NCBI GenBank assembly: GCA_017532085.1
Contig: JAFXJT010000025.1
Coordinates: 1 to 61,401 of the forward strand
Direction: 5' to 3'
DNA: 61,401 nt
Origin: Oscillospiraceae bacterium
Lineage (GTDB): Bacteria > Bacillota > Clostridia > Oscillospirales > Ruminococcaceae
A program made the position numbers and the translations under genes. Under the pieces are notes generated by a model, which saw nothing but the letters and a program-made list of their open reading frames with translations, was not told the origin of the DNA and searched no databases. Shown here one piece after another: positions 18,618 to 25,961 of this stretch. The stretch's first letter is position 1. The number at the start of each line of letters is the position of its first letter.

Positions 18618-18673
18618 GACGATTTGTGAACAAATTGTAAATTTTGACGTTTGTCATTTTTTTGTCATTTTTT

Positions 18674-18702
18674 TGTAACCTTTTGAAAAAAACAGAGACT
18701 AA
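18674..18702 (+). promoter_or_regulatory. Candidate ECF-type promoter of the fab operon
   Basis: TGTAACCTTTT begins at 18674. GACTAA (18697-18702) lies 16 bases after TGTAACC. The same TGTAACCTTT motif precedes the divergent ECF sigma gene. No good sigma-A promoter is visible just upstream of fabH. A T-rich direct repeat (TTTGTCATTTTT twice) lies immediately before it. Confidence 0.4.
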
Positions 18703-18718
18703 TTTATCAGAGTGCCCT

Positions 18719-18759
18719 TTTGGCAGAGAACCTACACTGGCCTCTTCTCCTCTGCCAAA
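18719..18759 (+). promoter_or_regulatory. Inverted repeat in the fabH leader
   Basis: TTTGGCAGAG (18719-18728) and CTCTGCCAAA (18750-18759) form a perfect 10-bp inverted repeat with a 21-base loop, 25 bases before the fabH start. There is no T run after it, so it is not a terminator. It could be an operator or an mRNA structure. It does not resemble the FapR operator. Confidence 0.5.
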
Positions 18760-18784
18760 TGCGATAGAAAGGAATCACGATAAC

Positions 18785-19741
18785 ATGAGCTTTCGATTTT
18801 TAGGTACCGGTGCTTATGTGCCGGAAACCATCGTTACCAATGATGCGCTTTCCAAGCTGGTGGATACCGATGACGAATGGATCACCCAGCGTGTCGGGGT
18901 CAAGCGCAGACATATTTCAAAGAATCAGACGGCTGCGGATATGGCAACAGAGGCTGCAAAACGTGCTCTGGAAAACGCCGGTGTGCTTCCTGCCGAGCTG
19001 GATCTGATTCTGGTTGCAACGGTCAGCTCGGAAACCGCTGCGCCCTCTGCTGCTTGTCTGGTACAGAGAAATATCGGTGCAGCTTGTATGGCATTTGATA
19101 TCTCGGCTGCTTGTGCAGGATTCCTTTTTGCGCTGGAAACCGCAAATGCATACTTTATGACCCGCAAGATCAAGAAAGCTTTGGTCATCGGTGCCGAACG
19201 GCTCAGCCGCCTCGTGAACTGGTCAGACCGCTCTACCTGCGTGATCTTCGGTGACGGCGCCGGCGCTGCGGTTCTCGGTGAGGGCAATGCTTATCTGGAT
19301 TCCACCTTCACCGTAACCGGTGATGATACCGTGCTCCGAATCCCGAATTATGCCGGCAAAAGTCCCTATTGGGAGGGCAAATCCGAAGATCCCTTCATCG
19401 AAATGCAGGGACAGGCTACCTTCAAGTTCGCTGTGCAGTCGATGGTGCGGGATATCAAGCTGCTGCTGGAACGCAATCATCTCTCGACAGAGGATATCGC
19501 CTGTATTGTCCCGCATCAGGCAAACAGCCGCATCATTGAGCTGGCTGCCCGTAAGTTGGGCATCCCCTATGAGCGCTTTGTGCTGAATATCACCGAATAC
19601 GGCAATACTTCCGCTGCAAGTGTGCCCATCGCGCTGGATGAAGCAGCCAGAAAAGGAATCCTGCAAAAAGGCGATAAATTTATTATGGCCGGCTTCGGCG
19701 GCGGATTGGCAAGCGCTGCCAATCTGATGATCTGGGAATAA
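18785..19741 (+). CDS. fabH: Beta-ketoacyl-ACP synthase III
   Basis: FabH starts fatty-acid synthesis by condensing acyl-CoA with malonyl-ACP. The 318-residue product has the catalytic triad of a thiolase fold: C110 in DISAACAGF, H244 in VPHQANSRII and N274 in EYGNTSAAS. I placed the start at ATG 18785, where the protein begins SFRFLGTGAYVPE and AAAGGAATC is upstream. A longer frame to 18644 runs through the leader and hairpin and is not conserved. It is the first gene of the FASII operon. Confidence 0.95.
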   Translation: MSFRFLGTGAYVPETIVTNDALSKLVDTDDEWITQRVGVKRRHISKNQTAADMATEAAKRALENAGVLPAELDLILVATVSSETAAPSAACLVQRNIGAACMAFDISAACAGFLFALETANAYFMTRKIKKALVIGAERLSRLVNWSDRSTCVIFGDGAGAAVLGEGNAYLDSTFTVTGDDTVLRIPNYAGKSPYWEGKSEDPFIEMQGQATFKFAVQSMVRDIKLLLERNHLSTEDIACIVPHQANSRIIELAARKLGIPYERFVLNITEYGNTSAASVPIALDEAARKGILQKGDKFIMAGFGGGLASAANLMIWE

Positions 19742-19800: not shown

Positions 19801-20025
19801 ATGGTACAGGAAAAACTGATTGCACTGATCGCTGAGAACATTGATTGTGATGCTGCTGAGCTGAATGCTTCCACTGAATTTGAGTCTCTGGGCATCGATT
19901 CGCTGGATATCGCTGAGCTGCTGATGACGGTTGAGGATGAGTTCGGTGTATCTGTTGAGATGGATCCTGCTCTTAAGACCATCGGTGATCTGACTGCTAA
20001 GATCGAAGAAGGTCAAAACGCTTAA
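19801..20025 (+). CDS. acpP: Acyl carrier protein
   Basis: ACP carries growing acyl chains on a 4'-phosphopantetheine. The acidic 74-residue product has the attachment serine in GIDSLDIAELL (S34). AAAGGAGA precedes the ATG at 19801, and the in-frame upstream ATG at 19780 is part of the leader. It lies between fabH and fabK in the FASII operon. Confidence 0.96.
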   Translation: MVQEKLIALIAENIDCDAAELNASTEFESLGIDSLDIAELLMTVEDEFGVSVEMDPALKTIGDLTAKIEEGQNA

Positions 20026-20055: not shown

Positions 20056-21003
20056 ATGTTAAGCTCTCCAATTTGTGAACGTATCGGAATACAATATCCT
20101 GTTTTTCAAGGCGGTATGGCTTGGATCTCGGATGCAAAACTGGCTGCTGCCGTTTCGGAAGCCGGCGGATTGGGTATTATCTCCGGTGTGCGGGAAAGCG
20201 CCGAGGCACTCCGTGAACAGATCCGATTGGCACGCACTCTGACCGATAAGCCCTTTGGTGTCAACATCATGCTCATGAGCCCGCTGGCTGAGGAAATCGC
20301 TGCCGTAGTTGCTCAGGAGCGCGTGGCTGTGGTCACAACCGGTGCGGGAAGTCCTGCAAAATTCATGCCCATGTGGCAGGAAGCCGGCATTGCTGTGATT
20401 CCCGTGGTAGCCTCCGTTGCCATGGCGCAGATCGCAGAACGCACCGGCGCTGCTGCTGTCATTGCCGAAGGACAGGAATCCGGCGGTCATATCGGAGAGC
20501 TTACCACAATGGCTCTGGTGCCTCAGGTTGCCGCTGCAGTTTCCATCCCCGTATTGGCTGCAGGCGGCATCGGTGATGGCAGAGGCATGGCGGCTGCCTT
20601 TATGCTGGGCGCTGTCGGCGTACAGATGGGCACCCGCTTCCTCGTTGCCGAAGAGTGCAGCATCCATCCGAACTACAAAGCTGCTGTGCTCAAAGCAAGC
20701 GATGTTTCAACCGTTACCACCGGCAGACGCTTCGGCGGCAATACTTGCCGGTGTATCAAAAACCAATTTTCCCGTAACTTTTTGCAGCAGGAATATGCTC
20801 CTGATGCGACGGCAGAATCCATTGCCGATCTGGGCGTTGGCGCTTTGCGTCGTGCTGTGGAGGGAGATGCCAAAACCGGCTGCCTCTTAGCCGGTCAAAT
20901 CAGCGGTATGGTGCGTCAGCAAGAACCTGCCGCAGCGATCGTACAATCTGTCTGCAATGAGGCGGAACTGCTTTTGAAAGGAGCGCAGCAATGGGTAAAA
21001 TAG
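20056..21003 (+). CDS. fabK: Enoyl-ACP reductase II (FMN-dependent)
   Basis: FabK performs the last reduction of each elongation cycle and replaces FabI in many Firmicutes. The 315-residue TIM-barrel flavoprotein begins CERIGIQYPVFQGGMAWISD, has the FMN-phosphate segments AAGGIGDGRGMA and GVQMGTRF, and the QESGGHIGE loop. The nitronate monooxygenase family is similar, but the position between acpP and fabD settles the assignment. AAGGAAAGGAACC precedes the ATG. The stop codon overlaps the start of fabD by 13 bases. Confidence 0.94.
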   Translation: MLSSPICERIGIQYPVFQGGMAWISDAKLAAAVSEAGGLGIISGVRESAEALREQIRLARTLTDKPFGVNIMLMSPLAEEIAAVVAQERVAVVTTGAGSPAKFMPMWQEAGIAVIPVVASVAMAQIAERTGAAAVIAEGQESGGHIGELTTMALVPQVAAAVSIPVLAAGGIGDGRGMAAAFMLGAVGVQMGTRFLVAEECSIHPNYKAAVLKASDVSTVTTGRRFGGNTCRCIKNQFSRNFLQQEYAPDATAESIADLGVGALRRAVEGDAKTGCLLAGQISGMVRQQEPAAAIVQSVCNEAELLLKGAQQWVK

Positions 21004-21908
21004 CATTTGTTTTTTCGGGTCAGGGTGCACAGCACAGCGGAATGGGCAAAGCATTCTATGATCAAAGCCCGGCAGTGCGTGCCATATTCGATGCCGCAGA
21101 AGCCATGCGTCCCGGTACGCTGCAGCAATGCTTCGATTCCGATGCGGAAACGCTCAAGCAGACCCAAAATACACAGCCTTGTCTGTATCTGACCGATCTG
21201 GCTGCTGCACTGGCTTTACAGGAAGCCGGTATCCAAGCCGATGGTCTTGCCGGATTCTCTCTCGGAGAGATTCCTGCTCTGGCATTCGGCGGTGCCTATT
21301 CTGCCCAAGAAGGCTTTGCCATCGCCTGCAAGCGAGGAGAAGCCATGGCAAAGGCTGCCGCTGCTGCCCCGGCATCTATGGTGGCTGTTCTGAAACTGGA
21401 AAAATCTGCGGTAGAGGCACTTTGTCATGCACATGAAGGTGTCTATGCCGTCAATGATAACGCACCCGGTCAAGTGGTATGTGCAGGACGTTCCGAAGCA
21501 CTGCCTGCCTTTACCGAGGATGTCAAAAAAGCAGGCGGTCGTGCTTTGCCTCTGGCTGTGGGAGGAGGCTTCCACTCTCCGATGATGCAGCCCGCCGCCG
21601 AGGAATTCGGAGAAGCACTGCAGCAATATCCTTACACCAAGCCTGCTCTGCCCGTTTACGGCAATACCTATGCCGAGCCCTATGGCGAAAACGGGCATGC
21701 ATGGATGCAGGCGCAGATTCATAATCCTGTGCGCTGGGTGGATACCATACGCCGTATGGTCAGTGAGGGCTATGACATCTTCATCGAATGCGGTGTGGGC
21801 AATACGCTGACAAAGCTGATTGGCAAAATTGATCCCTCTGTTCGGGCATTTGCTGTGGAAGATCCGGAATCTATGGCAAACGCCATAGCCGCATTGAAGG
21901 AGGCATAA
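20991..21908 (+). CDS. fabD: Malonyl-CoA:ACP transacylase
   Basis: FabD loads malonate from CoA onto ACP. The 305-residue protein has the N-terminal FVFSGQGAQHSGMG, the nucleophile motif GFSLGE (S90) and the catalytic histidine in GGGFHSPMM (H195). AAAGGAG lies upstream of the ATG inside the end of fabK, so the genes are translationally coupled. The length is normal. Confidence 0.95.
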   Translation: MGKIAFVFSGQGAQHSGMGKAFYDQSPAVRAIFDAAEAMRPGTLQQCFDSDAETLKQTQNTQPCLYLTDLAAALALQEAGIQADGLAGFSLGEIPALAFGGAYSAQEGFAIACKRGEAMAKAAAAAPASMVAVLKLEKSAVEALCHAHEGVYAVNDNAPGQVVCAGRSEALPAFTEDVKKAGGRALPLAVGGGFHSPMMQPAAEEFGEALQQYPYTKPALPVYGNTYAEPYGENGHAWMQAQIHNPVRWVDTIRRMVSEGYDIFIECGVGNTLTKLIGKIDPSVRAFAVEDPESMANAIAALKEA

Positions 21909-21911
21909 TCT

Positions 21912-22649
21912 ATGAACTTAAACGGAAAAACTGCCGTTGTCACAGGCGGCTCCAGAGGAATCGGCAGGGCAGTCTGCATTGCCCTTGCCCAAGCCGGTGC
22001 CAATGTGATTCTGCTGTATGCCGGCAATGCGCAAAAGGCTGAGGAAACTCTGGCTCTGCTGGATGCCTATCCCGGCAAAGCTGCCGCATTTTGCTGTGAT
22101 GTCTCCGATTTTGCACAGACCAAAGAAATCTTCTCTGAAATCCACAAAGCCTATGGCTCCATTGATATTGTCGTCAACAACGCCGGCATTACCAAGGATA
22201 AGCTTATGCTTTCCATGAAGCCCGAGGAATTTGAAGCTGTGCTGAATGTCAATCTGACCGGTGCATTCAATGTGCTCAAGCAGGTCTATCCGATTATGGC
22301 AAAGCAGCGCAGCGGTAAGATTATCAATATCAGCTCTGTTGCCGGATTGATGGGCAATGCGGGTCAGGTCAACTATGCAGCATCCAAGGCAGGTCTGATC
22401 GGTATGACCAAAAGCATTGCATAAGAGCTTGCTCCGAGAGGCATCTGCTGCAATGCGATTGCTCCCGGCTTTATCGAAACCGATATGACAGAAGCATTCC
22501 AGGATAAGCCTGAGGTGCTCGGTGTCATTCCCATGAAGCGTATGGGCAAGCCTGAGGAGGTTGCAGCTCTGGTTGCATTTCTCGCTTCCCCCGCCGCCGA
22601 TTATATCACCGGTGAAGTGATCCGGATTGATGGCGGCATGGCAATGTAA
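21912..22649 (+). pseudogene. fabG: 3-oxoacyl-ACP reductase FabG interrupted by an in-frame TAA
   Basis: FabG reduces 3-oxoacyl-ACP with NADPH and is normally essential. The frame from ATG 21912 encodes the Rossmann start TAVVTGGSRGIG, the NNAGIT segment and the catalytic residues S142, Y155 and K159. It then meets TAA at 22422-22424 (codon 171). Past the stop the same frame continues for 74 codons with a normal FabG C-terminus (PGFIETDMT, GEVIRIDGGMAM) to TAA at 22647-22649. The full product would be 245 residues. Homologues usually have lysine at the stop (SIAKELAPRG), so one A-to-T change from AAA would explain it. No frameshift is present. The truncated 170-residue form lacks the C-terminal helix and strand of the fold. 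It may be a recent mutation, a sequencing error, or a codon that is read through. Confidence 0.9.
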
Positions 22650-22676: not shown

Positions 22677-23906
22677 ATGAAACGTGTTGTTGTTACCGGT
22701 ATCGGTGCTGTGACGCCTGTGGGAAATACGGTTCCTGCATTCTGGGAAGCGATTCTGAACGGAACCAATGGAATCGCTCCGATTACCGCTTTTGATGCTT
22801 CCGAATACAACTGGAAGCTGGCTGCCGAGGTCAAGGCGTTTGATCCCGCAGCAGTGCTCGATAAGATGACTGCCAGAAAAACCGATCGCTTTGTACAATT
22901 TGCCTTGGCTGCCACCCAAGAGGCTATGGCGGACAGCGGCATCGAAGGCACCTTGGAGCCGGAAGAACTGGGTGTTTATTACGGCTCCGGTATTGGCGGC
23001 TTTACGACACTTTGCGCACAGCATATTGCTATGCTGGAGGGCGGTCAGCGTAAGGTACAGCCCCAGTTTATCAGCAAAATGATCTATAATATCGCAGCCG
23101 GCAATATTGCCATCCGCTTCCATGCCAAGGGTGCCAATATGGCAGTTTCCACTGCCTGTGCTACCGGCACCACTGCCATCGGTGAGGCCTATCGTGCCAT
23201 CGCTATGGGAGCGCAGACGGCAATCATCTGCGGCGGCAGTGAAGCTGCCATTACGCCGTTGGCTCTGGTTGGCTTCGGCAATGCTATGGCGCTTAACAGT
23301 GCTGAGGATCTCAATATGGCTTCCATCCCCTTCGATGCCCGCAGAGGCGGCTTCGTCATGGGCGAAGGTGCCGGTACTCTGATCCTTGAAGAATATGAGC
23401 ACGCTGCTGCACGCGGTGCCAAAATCTATGCAGAGGTCTGCGGCTATGGCGCAACCTGCGATGCCCATCATGTCACAGCACCCGATCCCGAGGCTTCACA
23501 AGTGGCAAGAGCCATTACCCTGGCTTGCGGTGATCTTTCTGTGGATCCTTGCGAAATCTATGTCAATGCGCATGGCACAGGCACACCGATGAATGATCGT
23601 ACCGAAACCATGGCGCTGAAAAAAGCCTTCGGTGAGGATGCCGCTAAGCTGCATATCAGCTCTACCAAATCCATGACCGGTCATATGCTGGGTGCAGCCG
23701 GTGCTGTTGAAGCCATTGCTGCCATCCTTGCTTTGCAGAATGATATCGTTCCGCCGACCATCAATCTGCAGGAAGCAGATCCCGACTGCGATCTGGATTA
23801 TACGCCCAACACCGCTGTGAAAACACCGATCTCTCTTGCTGTTTCCACTTCTCTGGGCTTCGGCGGTCACAATGCCTGTGTTGCTTTCAAGAAGGTGCAG
23901 GCATGA
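22677..23906 (+). CDS. fabF: Beta-ketoacyl-ACP synthase II
   Basis: FabF elongates acyl-ACP chains. The 409-residue product has the nucleophile C161 in STACATGT, the first active-site histidine in VNAHGTGTPMND, and the second in KSMTGHMLGAAG, plus the C-terminal LGFGGHNA. ATG 22677 starts the conserved KRVVVTGIGAVTPVG; GAAAGGAAG is upstream. The stop overlaps the start of fabZ by 4 bases. In many clostridial operons accB follows here; it is absent. Confidence 0.96.
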   Translation: MKRVVVTGIGAVTPVGNTVPAFWEAILNGTNGIAPITAFDASEYNWKLAAEVKAFDPAAVLDKMTARKTDRFVQFALAATQEAMADSGIEGTLEPEELGVYYGSGIGGFTTLCAQHIAMLEGGQRKVQPQFISKMIYNIAAGNIAIRFHAKGANMAVSTACATGTTAIGEAYRAIAMGAQTAIICGGSEAAITPLALVGFGNAMALNSAEDLNMASIPFDARRGGFVMGEGAGTLILEEYEHAAARGAKIYAEVCGYGATCDAHHVTAPDPEASQVARAITLACGDLSVDPCEIYVNAHGTGTPMNDRTETMALKKAFGEDAAKLHISSTKSMTGHMLGAAGAVEAIAAILALQNDIVPPTINLQEADPDCDLDYTPNTAVKTPISLAVSTSLGFGGHNACVAFKKVQA

Positions 23907-24325
23907 ATCGACAGGAACTGATGCAGATTCTTCCGCATCGGGATACCATGCTGCTGCTGGATGAAGCTTCCGTTGTGGATCAGGTTGCACACGGCAAGCT
24001 GGAAATCAAAGGCGATGAGTGGTTCTTAAATGGGCATTTCCCCAACGAACCCATTGTACCCGGTGTGATTTTATGTGAAATCCTTGCCCAATCGACCTGT
24101 GTTCTGCTGCAGGATCAGATCAAAGACAGCGCCTCTGTCAGAACCCTGTATACAGGACTCAATCATGTACGGTTCCGCAATCCGGTAAAACCCGGTGATG
24201 TGTTCCGCACAGAATGTGTCATTACCAAGGCAAAAGCACCCTTTTATTTTGCAAGCGGCAAAGGCTATGTCGGTGATCGTCTCTGCATCAGTGCAGAGTT
24301 CTCATTCGCTGTCCAAACGCTGTAA
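23903..24325 (+). CDS. fabZ: 3-hydroxyacyl-ACP dehydratase
   Basis: FabZ dehydrates 3-hydroxyacyl-ACP. The 140-residue hot-dog-fold protein has the conserved ILPHRDTMLLLD start and the active-site helix region GHFPNEPIVPGVILCEILAQ. It is coupled to fabF by an ATGA overlap. Only one dehydratase gene is in the cluster, as in other FabK-type Firmicutes; no isomerase for unsaturated fatty acids is seen here. Confidence 0.95.
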   Translation: MNRQELMQILPHRDTMLLLDEASVVDQVAHGKLEIKGDEWFLNGHFPNEPIVPGVILCEILAQSTCVLLQDQIKDSASVRTLYTGLNHVRFRNPVKPGDVFRTECVITKAKAPFYFASGKGYVGDRLCISAEFSFAVQTL

Positions 24326-24336
24326 AGGAGTCATCC

Positions 24337-25173
24337 ATGGACAAATTGATTCATAAGGTGAAAGAAGCACTGCACTTTGATACCAAAAAAGATGAACGTC
24401 TCATCTGCAAGCACTGTGAAGCCGATCTCTCGAAAAAGAGTCTGATGAAGCATCATATGATCTGTACCGAATGCGGCAGCTATTTCCGCATCGCTCCCAG
24501 AGACCGAATCAAGCTCATCTGTGACGACGGTACATTCAAAGAAATGTTCTCTGCCATTGAAAGCAAGAATTTTCTCGATTTCCCCAAGTATGACCAGAAG
24601 CTCGCACAGGCAAAGGAACAAACCAATGAAAAAGAGGCTGTGCTTTGCGGCAGAGCAAAAATCGGAAATGTACCTGCCTGTATCTTTGTAATGGATTCTC
24701 GTTTTATTATGGCAAGCATGGGCTCTGCAGTGGGCGAAAAAATCACCCGATTGTTTGAATATGCCACAAAACAAAAACTGCCCGTTGTCGGTTTTTGCTG
24801 CTCCGGCGGCGCCAGAATGCAGGAAAGCATTCTTTCTCTGATGCAGATGGCAAAAGTCAGCGGTGCAGTACAGCGCCACGGACAGGAAGGCAATCTCTAT
24901 CTGCCGGTTCTCACCGATCCTACCACCGGCGGCGTTACCGCAAGCTTTGCGATGCAGGGCGATATCATCCTTGCAGAGCCGAAGGCTCTCGTAGGCTTTG
25001 CCGGTAAGCGTGTCATCCAGCAAACCGCAAATGCTGCGTTCCCCGATCATTTTCAAACCGCTGAGTTCCTGCTGGAACACGGCTTCCTAGATGCCATCGT
25101 GGAACGTGAAAATATGAAGGAAACCATTACGCTGCTTTGTGCACAGCATCGAAAGGCAGGAAGAACCGCATGA
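24337..25173 (+). CDS. accD: Acetyl-CoA carboxylase carboxyltransferase, beta subunit
   Basis: AccD with AccA moves the carboxyl group from biotin to acetyl-CoA, giving malonyl-CoA. The 278-residue protein has the N-terminal four-cysteine zinc ribbon (C24, C27, C43, C46) and the crotonase-like core with CCSGGARMQESILSLMQM and LTDPTTGGVTASFAMQGD. AAAGGAG precedes the ATG. It ends overlapping accA. The partner genes accB and accC are not in this operon. Confidence 0.96.
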   Translation: MDKLIHKVKEALHFDTKKDERLICKHCEADLSKKSLMKHHMICTECGSYFRIAPRDRIKLICDDGTFKEMFSAIESKNFLDFPKYDQKLAQAKEQTNEKEAVLCGRAKIGNVPACIFVMDSRFIMASMGSAVGEKITRLFEYATKQKLPVVGFCCSGGARMQESILSLMQMAKVSGAVQRHGQEGNLYLPVLTDPTTGGVTASFAMQGDIILAEPKALVGFAGKRVIQQTANAAFPDHFQTAEFLLEHGFLDAIVERENMKETITLLCAQHRKAGRTA

Positions 25174-25961
25174 GCAAGAGCATTTATCAGCAATTCAAAA
25201 ACGCCCGTGCAGGTGCACGCCCCACAGCTTCTGCCTATATCGCCGAGCTGTTCGATAAGCGGATCGATCTCCACGGTGACCGCCGCTTTGCCGACGATGC
25301 TGCGATCATTGGCGGTATCGGTTATCTGGGCGGTATCCCCACGACTTATATCGGCATCGAAAAAGGTACCGATCTGCAATCCAGAATGGATCACAATTTC
25401 GGATGTCCCAAGCCGGAAGGCTACCGCAAGGCGCTTCGTTTGATGAAACAGGCTGAGAAATTCCATCGCCCTGTGGTCTGCTTTGTGGATACTATGGGTG
25501 CGTTCTGCGGCGTGGATGCCGAAGAACGCGGACAGGGAGAAGCCATCGCTGAAAATCTTGTGGAAATGATGGGATTGCGTACTCCGGTTATCTCCGTGAT
25601 CATCGGAGAAGGCGGCAGCGGCGGCGCTTTGGGTCTGGCTGTGGCAGATCGTGTGTATATGCTGGAAAACGCTGTGTATTCCGTGATTGCTCCCGAAGGC
25701 TGCGCCAATATTCTCTGGAAGGATGCTCAGCGTGTGGAGGAAGCCTGCGAAGCGCTGCATATTACTGCCAAGGATATGAAAGCGTTTCAGGTTGCAGAAA
25801 CCATCATCCCCGAAGATTTTGTCCACTTTGATATGATGTGTGAGAATCTCAAGCGCACTTTGGTGGAGGATATTTGTCATTTGTCCTCGATGCGCAAATA
25901 TGATCTGCTGGAAAACCGCTATCATCGCTATCGTGCCTTCGGTGTTTACCGCGAGGAATAA
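25170..25961 (+). CDS. accA: Acetyl-CoA carboxylase carboxyltransferase, alpha subunit
   Basis: AccA completes the carboxyltransferase with AccD. The 263-residue product has the family segments LHGDRRFADDAAIIGGIG, CFVDTMGAFCGVDAEERGQG and IIGEGGSGGALGLAVADRV. It starts in an ATGA overlap with the accD stop. It lacks the long N-terminal extension of the E. coli protein, as is usual in Firmicutes. It is the last gene of the FASII operon and is followed by a strong terminator. Confidence 0.95.
   Translation: MSKSIYQQFKNARAGARPTASAYIAELFDKRIDLHGDRRFADDAAIIGGIGYLGGIPTTYIGIEKGTDLQSRMDHNFGCPKPEGYRKALRLMKQAEKFHRPVVCFVDTMGAFCGVDAEERGQGEAIAENLVEMMGLRTPVISVIIGEGGSGGALGLAVADRVYMLENAVYSVIAPEGCANILWKDAQRVEEACEALHITAKDMKAFQVAETIIPEDFVHFDMMCENLKRTLVEDICHLSSMRKYDLLENRYHRYRAFGVYREE

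Follow-up and report, generated by a model that had tools for sequence, protein, structure and literature searches.

Two described situations lie close to the one reported here. The first is the spurious pseudogene, an otherwise intact gene that carries an internal stop codon. According to the part of the study available to us, spurious internal stops become more frequent at low coverage, vary with the choice of assembler and go along with the overall error of an assembly (Cooley and Wright, 2024, PMC11017572); Illumina assemblies are reported there to have generally the fewest of them, which would count against attributing a stop to an error if the platform were Illumina. The second is a deletion of fabG1 in E. 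faecalis: the strain lives but requires oleic acid, and, in the accessible portion of the report, the two paralogues do not take the place of the lost gene (PMC13293336). Our literature searches found no paper on premature stops in metagenome-assembled genomes and none on stop readthrough in essential genes of metagenomes.

Here, we describe an in-frame TAA in the fabG gene of a type II fatty acid synthesis (FASII) operon from an Oscillospiraceae bacterium. As with the spurious pseudogenes, an internal stop is found in an otherwise intact gene, there are several such cases in the draft, and they are apparently more numerous than in relatives; unlike them, the case is known from a consensus sequence, whereas the paper, as far as it was accessible, deals with RefSeq and reassembled isolate genomes. 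Should the stop be real, the likeness to E. faecalis would be that the operon fabG is lost and that paralogues give no replacement, and the difference that the deletion was engineered, in a different organism, and needs oleic acid, in so far as the excerpt of that report describes it.

The window, the whole stretch of DNA analysed, is 61,401 nucleotides long and makes up one entire contig of a draft genome, which totals 1.98 Mb over 82 contigs and has a completeness of 83.44%. It contains an operon in the order fabH-acpP-fabK-fabD-fabG-fabF-fabZ-accD-accA, which is set out below together with the parts of fabG. "Stop-free" refers to the sense frames aligned to the nearest relative, G011; bit scores are given with the family cut-off where they fall below it.

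18644..19741, + strand: fabH, ketoacyl-ACP synthase III; TIGR00747 and NF006829 above cut-off; aligned part stop-free; true start uncertain, as the family match begins at residue 48
19801..20025, + strand: acpP, acyl carrier protein of 74 amino acids in an open frame ending in TAA, seen in translation; too short for the stop comparison with G011
20056..21003, + strand: fabK, enoyl-ACP reductase; TIGR03151 416.7 bits (below the 453.1 cut-off); stop-free
20991..21908, + strand: fabD, malonyl-CoA:ACP transacylase, ending in TAA; TIGR00128 234.9 bits (below the 260.9 cut-off); stop-free
21912..22649, + strand: fabG, whole frame, with an in-frame TAA inside
21912..22424, + strand: part of fabG up to and including the in-frame stop; TIGR01830 profile positions 1-163 of 239; dN/dS 0.111 against G011
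22422..22424, + strand: in-frame TAA, placed by the sequence, the list of open reading frames, the profile match and the relatives
22425..22649, + strand: open frame of fabG after the stop, 74 codons and the normal TAA; TIGR01830 profile positions 165-239 of 239; dN/dS 0.044 against G011
22677..23906, + strand: fabF, ketoacyl-ACP synthase II; TIGR03150 above cut-off; ATG with a Shine-Dalgarno (SD)-like motif; stop-free
23903..24325, + strand: fabZ, hydroxyacyl-ACP dehydratase; NF000582 98.6 bits (below the 113 cut-off); stop-free
24337..25173, + strand: accD; TIGR00515 327 bits, above cut-off; stop-free
25137..25961, + strand: accA; PF03255 357.5 bits; stop-free

The acpP product, with the family's DSLD motif, is what we take to be the acyl carrier protein. 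A sequence-only reading of this DNA had pointed to the in-frame TAA within an otherwise intact operon and to a normal FabG C-terminus encoded after it, and both statements are borne out. The open reading frame of fabG is closed by TAA after 170 codons, and 74 open codons then lead to the normal TAA of the gene. Residues 8-170 of the first part correspond to positions 1-163 of the TIGR01830 profile, and residues 1-73 of the second part, in the same frame, to positions 165-239, the end of the profile; the C-terminal IRIDGG segment is present. As the profile positions are consecutive across the TAA, the frame is continuous and the stop position alone is missing. The whole TIGR01830 profile is thus matched in one frame, which is interrupted at 22422, and PF13561 likewise matches over the whole frame (233.4 bits) with one TAA inside. 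Queries from sampled relatives aligned across the stop in a first homology scan (four queries) and in a scan restricted by codon use (five), the best being that from G011, with 100% and 97% identity over 30 residues on the two sides; alignments of this kind indicate that the gene frame is more than chance. The first part contains what we presume to be the cofactor-binding start and the catalytic S-Y-K residues. Judged by these family matches, the predicted product would normally, and most likely, be a reductase of ketoacyl-ACP. The best named database matches are distant (58% identity over the first 170 residues). The intact FabG of G011 has matches among solved chains, 3osu and 1i01 being two of them.

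Is the stop shared with relatives? Of 100 genomes searched at the DNA level, this one among them, 64 gave matches; G011 is the sole close homologue (78% identity over nearly the whole of fabG), the remaining matches being of lower identity or short pieces. The fabG of G011, which lies in the same operon, is intact. Within the genus, a short-chain dehydrogenase/reductase (SDR) match was found in all 30 genomes, this one included, and exceeded the family cut-off in 28; in the other two (G013 and G025), whose best matches score 212 and 214 bits and in which fabG has no DNA match, the operon-type fabG was not seen by SDR profile or DNA search. Among the SDR matches listed for the 30 genomes, a stop lies only inside that of the window, and none lies in any match listed for the other 29, so that the stop is not conserved. 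The residue at the stop position was read from 28 aligned, distinct FabG rows of the genus, family and order, for which 43 loci were tried and 38 gave a usable frame. It is R in 21 of the 27 other rows and K in six, including the nearest relative. The lysine that had been expected there from homologues is therefore found, notably in G011, but arginine is the commoner residue.

The age of the stop can be approached from the constraint on the two parts of the gene. Against G011, fabG is constrained on both sides of the stop and bears no other lesion; its two dN/dS values, 0.111 before and 0.044 after, stand beside a range of 0.020-0.128 for 16 other genes of the window, and all these ratios are rough since dS in fabG, about 1.2, is near saturation. 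At otherwise invariant columns of the FabG alignment, private changes number two before the stop and none after it. If half of dS is assigned to this lineage, the constraint-free share of this branch is at most about 9-16%. An old pseudogene was considered and rejected, as constraint after the stop is not relaxed. Strong constraint in this part means instead that the stop is very young, is unreal or is read through.

We regard it as probable that the TAA is a base error of the assembly or consensus, a judgement drawn from the sequence. It would be a single-base error in the draft, arising from a read error, from low coverage or from a minority-strain base taken into the consensus, and in the organism fabG would most likely be intact and would serve as the ordinary ketoacyl-ACP reductase of its operon. 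An error fits best because the assembly is a draft, no decay is seen after the stop and five other genes of the same assembly are judged to be cut by assorted stops. The sequence-only reading had left three options, namely another reductase covering the step, a decoded stop and an error; it is the last that accords best with the results, while the first two have found no support.

The five genes other than fabG, each judged to be cut by a single in-frame stop (TGA, TAA, TAG, TAG and TAG), were found in 669,145 bases, or 34% of the assembly, by scans for stops inside coding-like frames and by homology, an earlier coding-frame scan having covered the first 372,054 bases. They are as follows.

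C9:15021 (L175:15021-15023): histidine kinase; TGA inside the HisKA domain, with the HATPase domain after it; W in G011, where the frame is intact
C18:17766 (L194:17766-17768): GH9 cellulase carrying CBM3 and dockerin; TAA late in the catalytic domain, preceded by profile positions 3-427 of 444; G011 has Y here and an intact frame
C16:2441 (L192:2441-2443): DUF4317 protein; TAG, profile positions 1-82 before it and 87-369 of 370 after it
C18:11996 (L194:11996-11998): pilin-backbone-like surface protein; TAG; the second cut gene on C18
C10:35133 (L186:15133-15135): membrane protein; TAG; the frame is a single open one in G011

The last two are the least certain, since Pfam assigned a family neither to the two parts of the membrane protein gene nor to the first part of the pilin-like gene. 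Against an error, none of 46 ABC-transporter and 12 HATPase matches held a stop within its matched domain. The variety of stop codons, found in unrelated genes, speaks for scattered base errors rather than recoding. A draft in which assorted stops fall in unrelated genes that otherwise look intact, a core gene among them, shows the pattern that base errors in a poorly covered consensus give. We infer that the stops of this assembly come from sequencing or assembly rather than from mutation.

Three relatives, G011, G014 and G015, served as controls. The homology scan, restricted to frames with coding-like codon use, replaced one that had been spoiled by antisense shadow frames. Among the bases it covered, it found four stops in 189,675 of this genome and one in 409,433 of the three relatives together (binomial P 0.038, with few events judged by eye). 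The sites listed numbered 16 in this genome and 8, 2 and 7 in G011, G014 and G015, of which four, none, one and none, respectively, were kept by eye; those dropped were judged to be upstream extensions, gene junctions and wrong frames. For one dropped cluster, three sites with a change of frame at L218 of G011, the frame used turned out to extend a Mur ligase gene upstream, across the end of the preceding gene. The one control site kept (G014 L229:781) shares its frame with other stops and looks like a decayed gene, and it was still counted.

A scan by coding score gave five stops in 669,145 bases here and one in 1,115,747 in the three relatives (P 0.031, again with few events judged by eye). 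The rows past the filter were 26, 7, 6 and 4 in the same order of genomes, and those judged to be interruptions were five in this genome (fabG and the kinase, cellulase, pilin-like and membrane protein genes) and one in the relatives together. The latter (G011 L204:811) has a TGA with 65 and 69 codons on its two sides, only the second part matching a family, and weakly. It appears to be a short AAA-like remnant with a TGA, likely an interrupted gene. In a smaller control of 119,089 bases from five relatives, five rows passed the filter and none was taken for an interruption. A different filter, run on this genome alone, yielded the DUF4317 case, which lies outside the like-for-like comparisons; with all methods pooled there are six cases here and two in the relatives (P 0.036), this genome having been searched with one filter more. 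The excess of stops is thus to be read as one of few events judged by eye, with P between 0.03 and 0.04, in a genome searched more intensively than its controls.

Frameshift candidates within the homology-covered bases numbered none here, and two, one and none in G011, G014 and G015; the larger of the G011 candidates was an artefact of upstream extension. The lack of a frameshift candidate in this genome is what substitution noise would lead one to expect. Counting five or six of the stops as errors would imply about 3.0 or 3.6 substitutions per 10,000 bases, as estimated from the 62 of 2196 one-base changes of fabG that make a stop and an assumed coding share of 88%. On the error reading, the case is a reminder that, when an essential gene of a draft assembly has a single stop, the assembly's own rate of internal stops needs to be considered first.

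It is possible, though we think it unlikely, that the TAA is a genuine and very recent nonsense mutation of the sampled strain or subpopulation. The chain of 170 residues, which lacks the end of the fold, would then be inactive and the FASII cycle incomplete, and the cells would live on fatty acids of their habitat. The undecayed flanks of the stop fit a very young mutation as well, and the other cut genes, which are of dispensable kinds, could likewise be genuine young pseudogenes. Moreover, the viability of the E. faecalis deletion described above provides a precedent, and the statement that FabG is normally essential would be too strong if it were meant to hold always, given growth with oleic acid in the part of the report consulted (PMC13293336). 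Against a null allele, the other compared genes of the operon are free of stops and constrained, no stop was seen among the matches listed for the 29 other genus genomes, and a null allele of FASII would be expected at low frequency in a population. A real stop would be significant as the mark of a wild strain without FASII elongation, dependent on fatty acids from its habitat.

It is very improbable that full-length FabG is made by decoding of the TAA, whether through a suppressor tRNA or through programmed readthrough. It would mean that a core enzyme of lipid synthesis is made through a TAA read as sense, perhaps as a control on fatty-acid synthesis, and the strong constraint on the frame after the stop is what readthrough would require. 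However, fabD, acpP and fabG itself all use TAA as their ordinary terminator, TGA and TAG occur besides TAA in the other cut genes, and the fabG stop is common to no relative among the matches listed. No UUA anticodon was listed by ARAGORN on the loci of 34 tRNA matches, which argues weakly in the same direction because tRNAs for Ile, Asn and Gln were also unlisted; two weak tRNA matches on C31 were not called tRNAs by this program. Given a real stop, a decoded stop in a core enzyme is much less likely than a lost FASII.

Replacement of FabG by another reductase, with the decay of fabG just begun, is extremely improbable. Two other SDR genes were located (C26:37168-37908 and C48:15159-15725), a fourth, weak match being counted in the tally, and the C26 gene adjoins one for a phosphopantetheinyl transferase, which would suit this view. 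The C26 protein has T at the position of what we take to be the catalytic serine of FabG, and its NNAG and DINLTGAF stretches differ; the C48 protein is more distant from FabG than that of C26. Matches of 145-175 bits like C26, grouped by score and not as orthologues, occur in 22 of the 29 other genus genomes among the matches listed, each beside a stronger match, and being so widespread they make the C26 gene no special replacement. A FabG-like paralogue of G011 (C38:15396-16100) has no counterpart among the matches listed in this incomplete genome, and fabG itself shows no decay. The search for a second FabG elsewhere in the genome that had been proposed thus found no canonical one in a genome 83% complete, and a covering reductase is not supported by the sequences compared. 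On C26 (L116:2456-3924), the phosphopantetheinyl transferase gene lies directly before the divergent SDR gene.

Finally, that FabG is made as two associating chains, the second starting after the stop, is barely conceivable: both parts are intact and constrained, as it would demand, but no relative among the matches listed has a split fabG, and no start with a ribosome site lies close after the stop, the first in-frame ATG being 20 codons on, in a conserved region and with no SD-like motif. The lack of a ribosome site for the downstream part, as stated earlier, thus applies near the stop; later starts with a chance SD-like motif occur 30 (GTG), 34 (ATT) and 48 (CTG) codons on, all inside conserved sequence.
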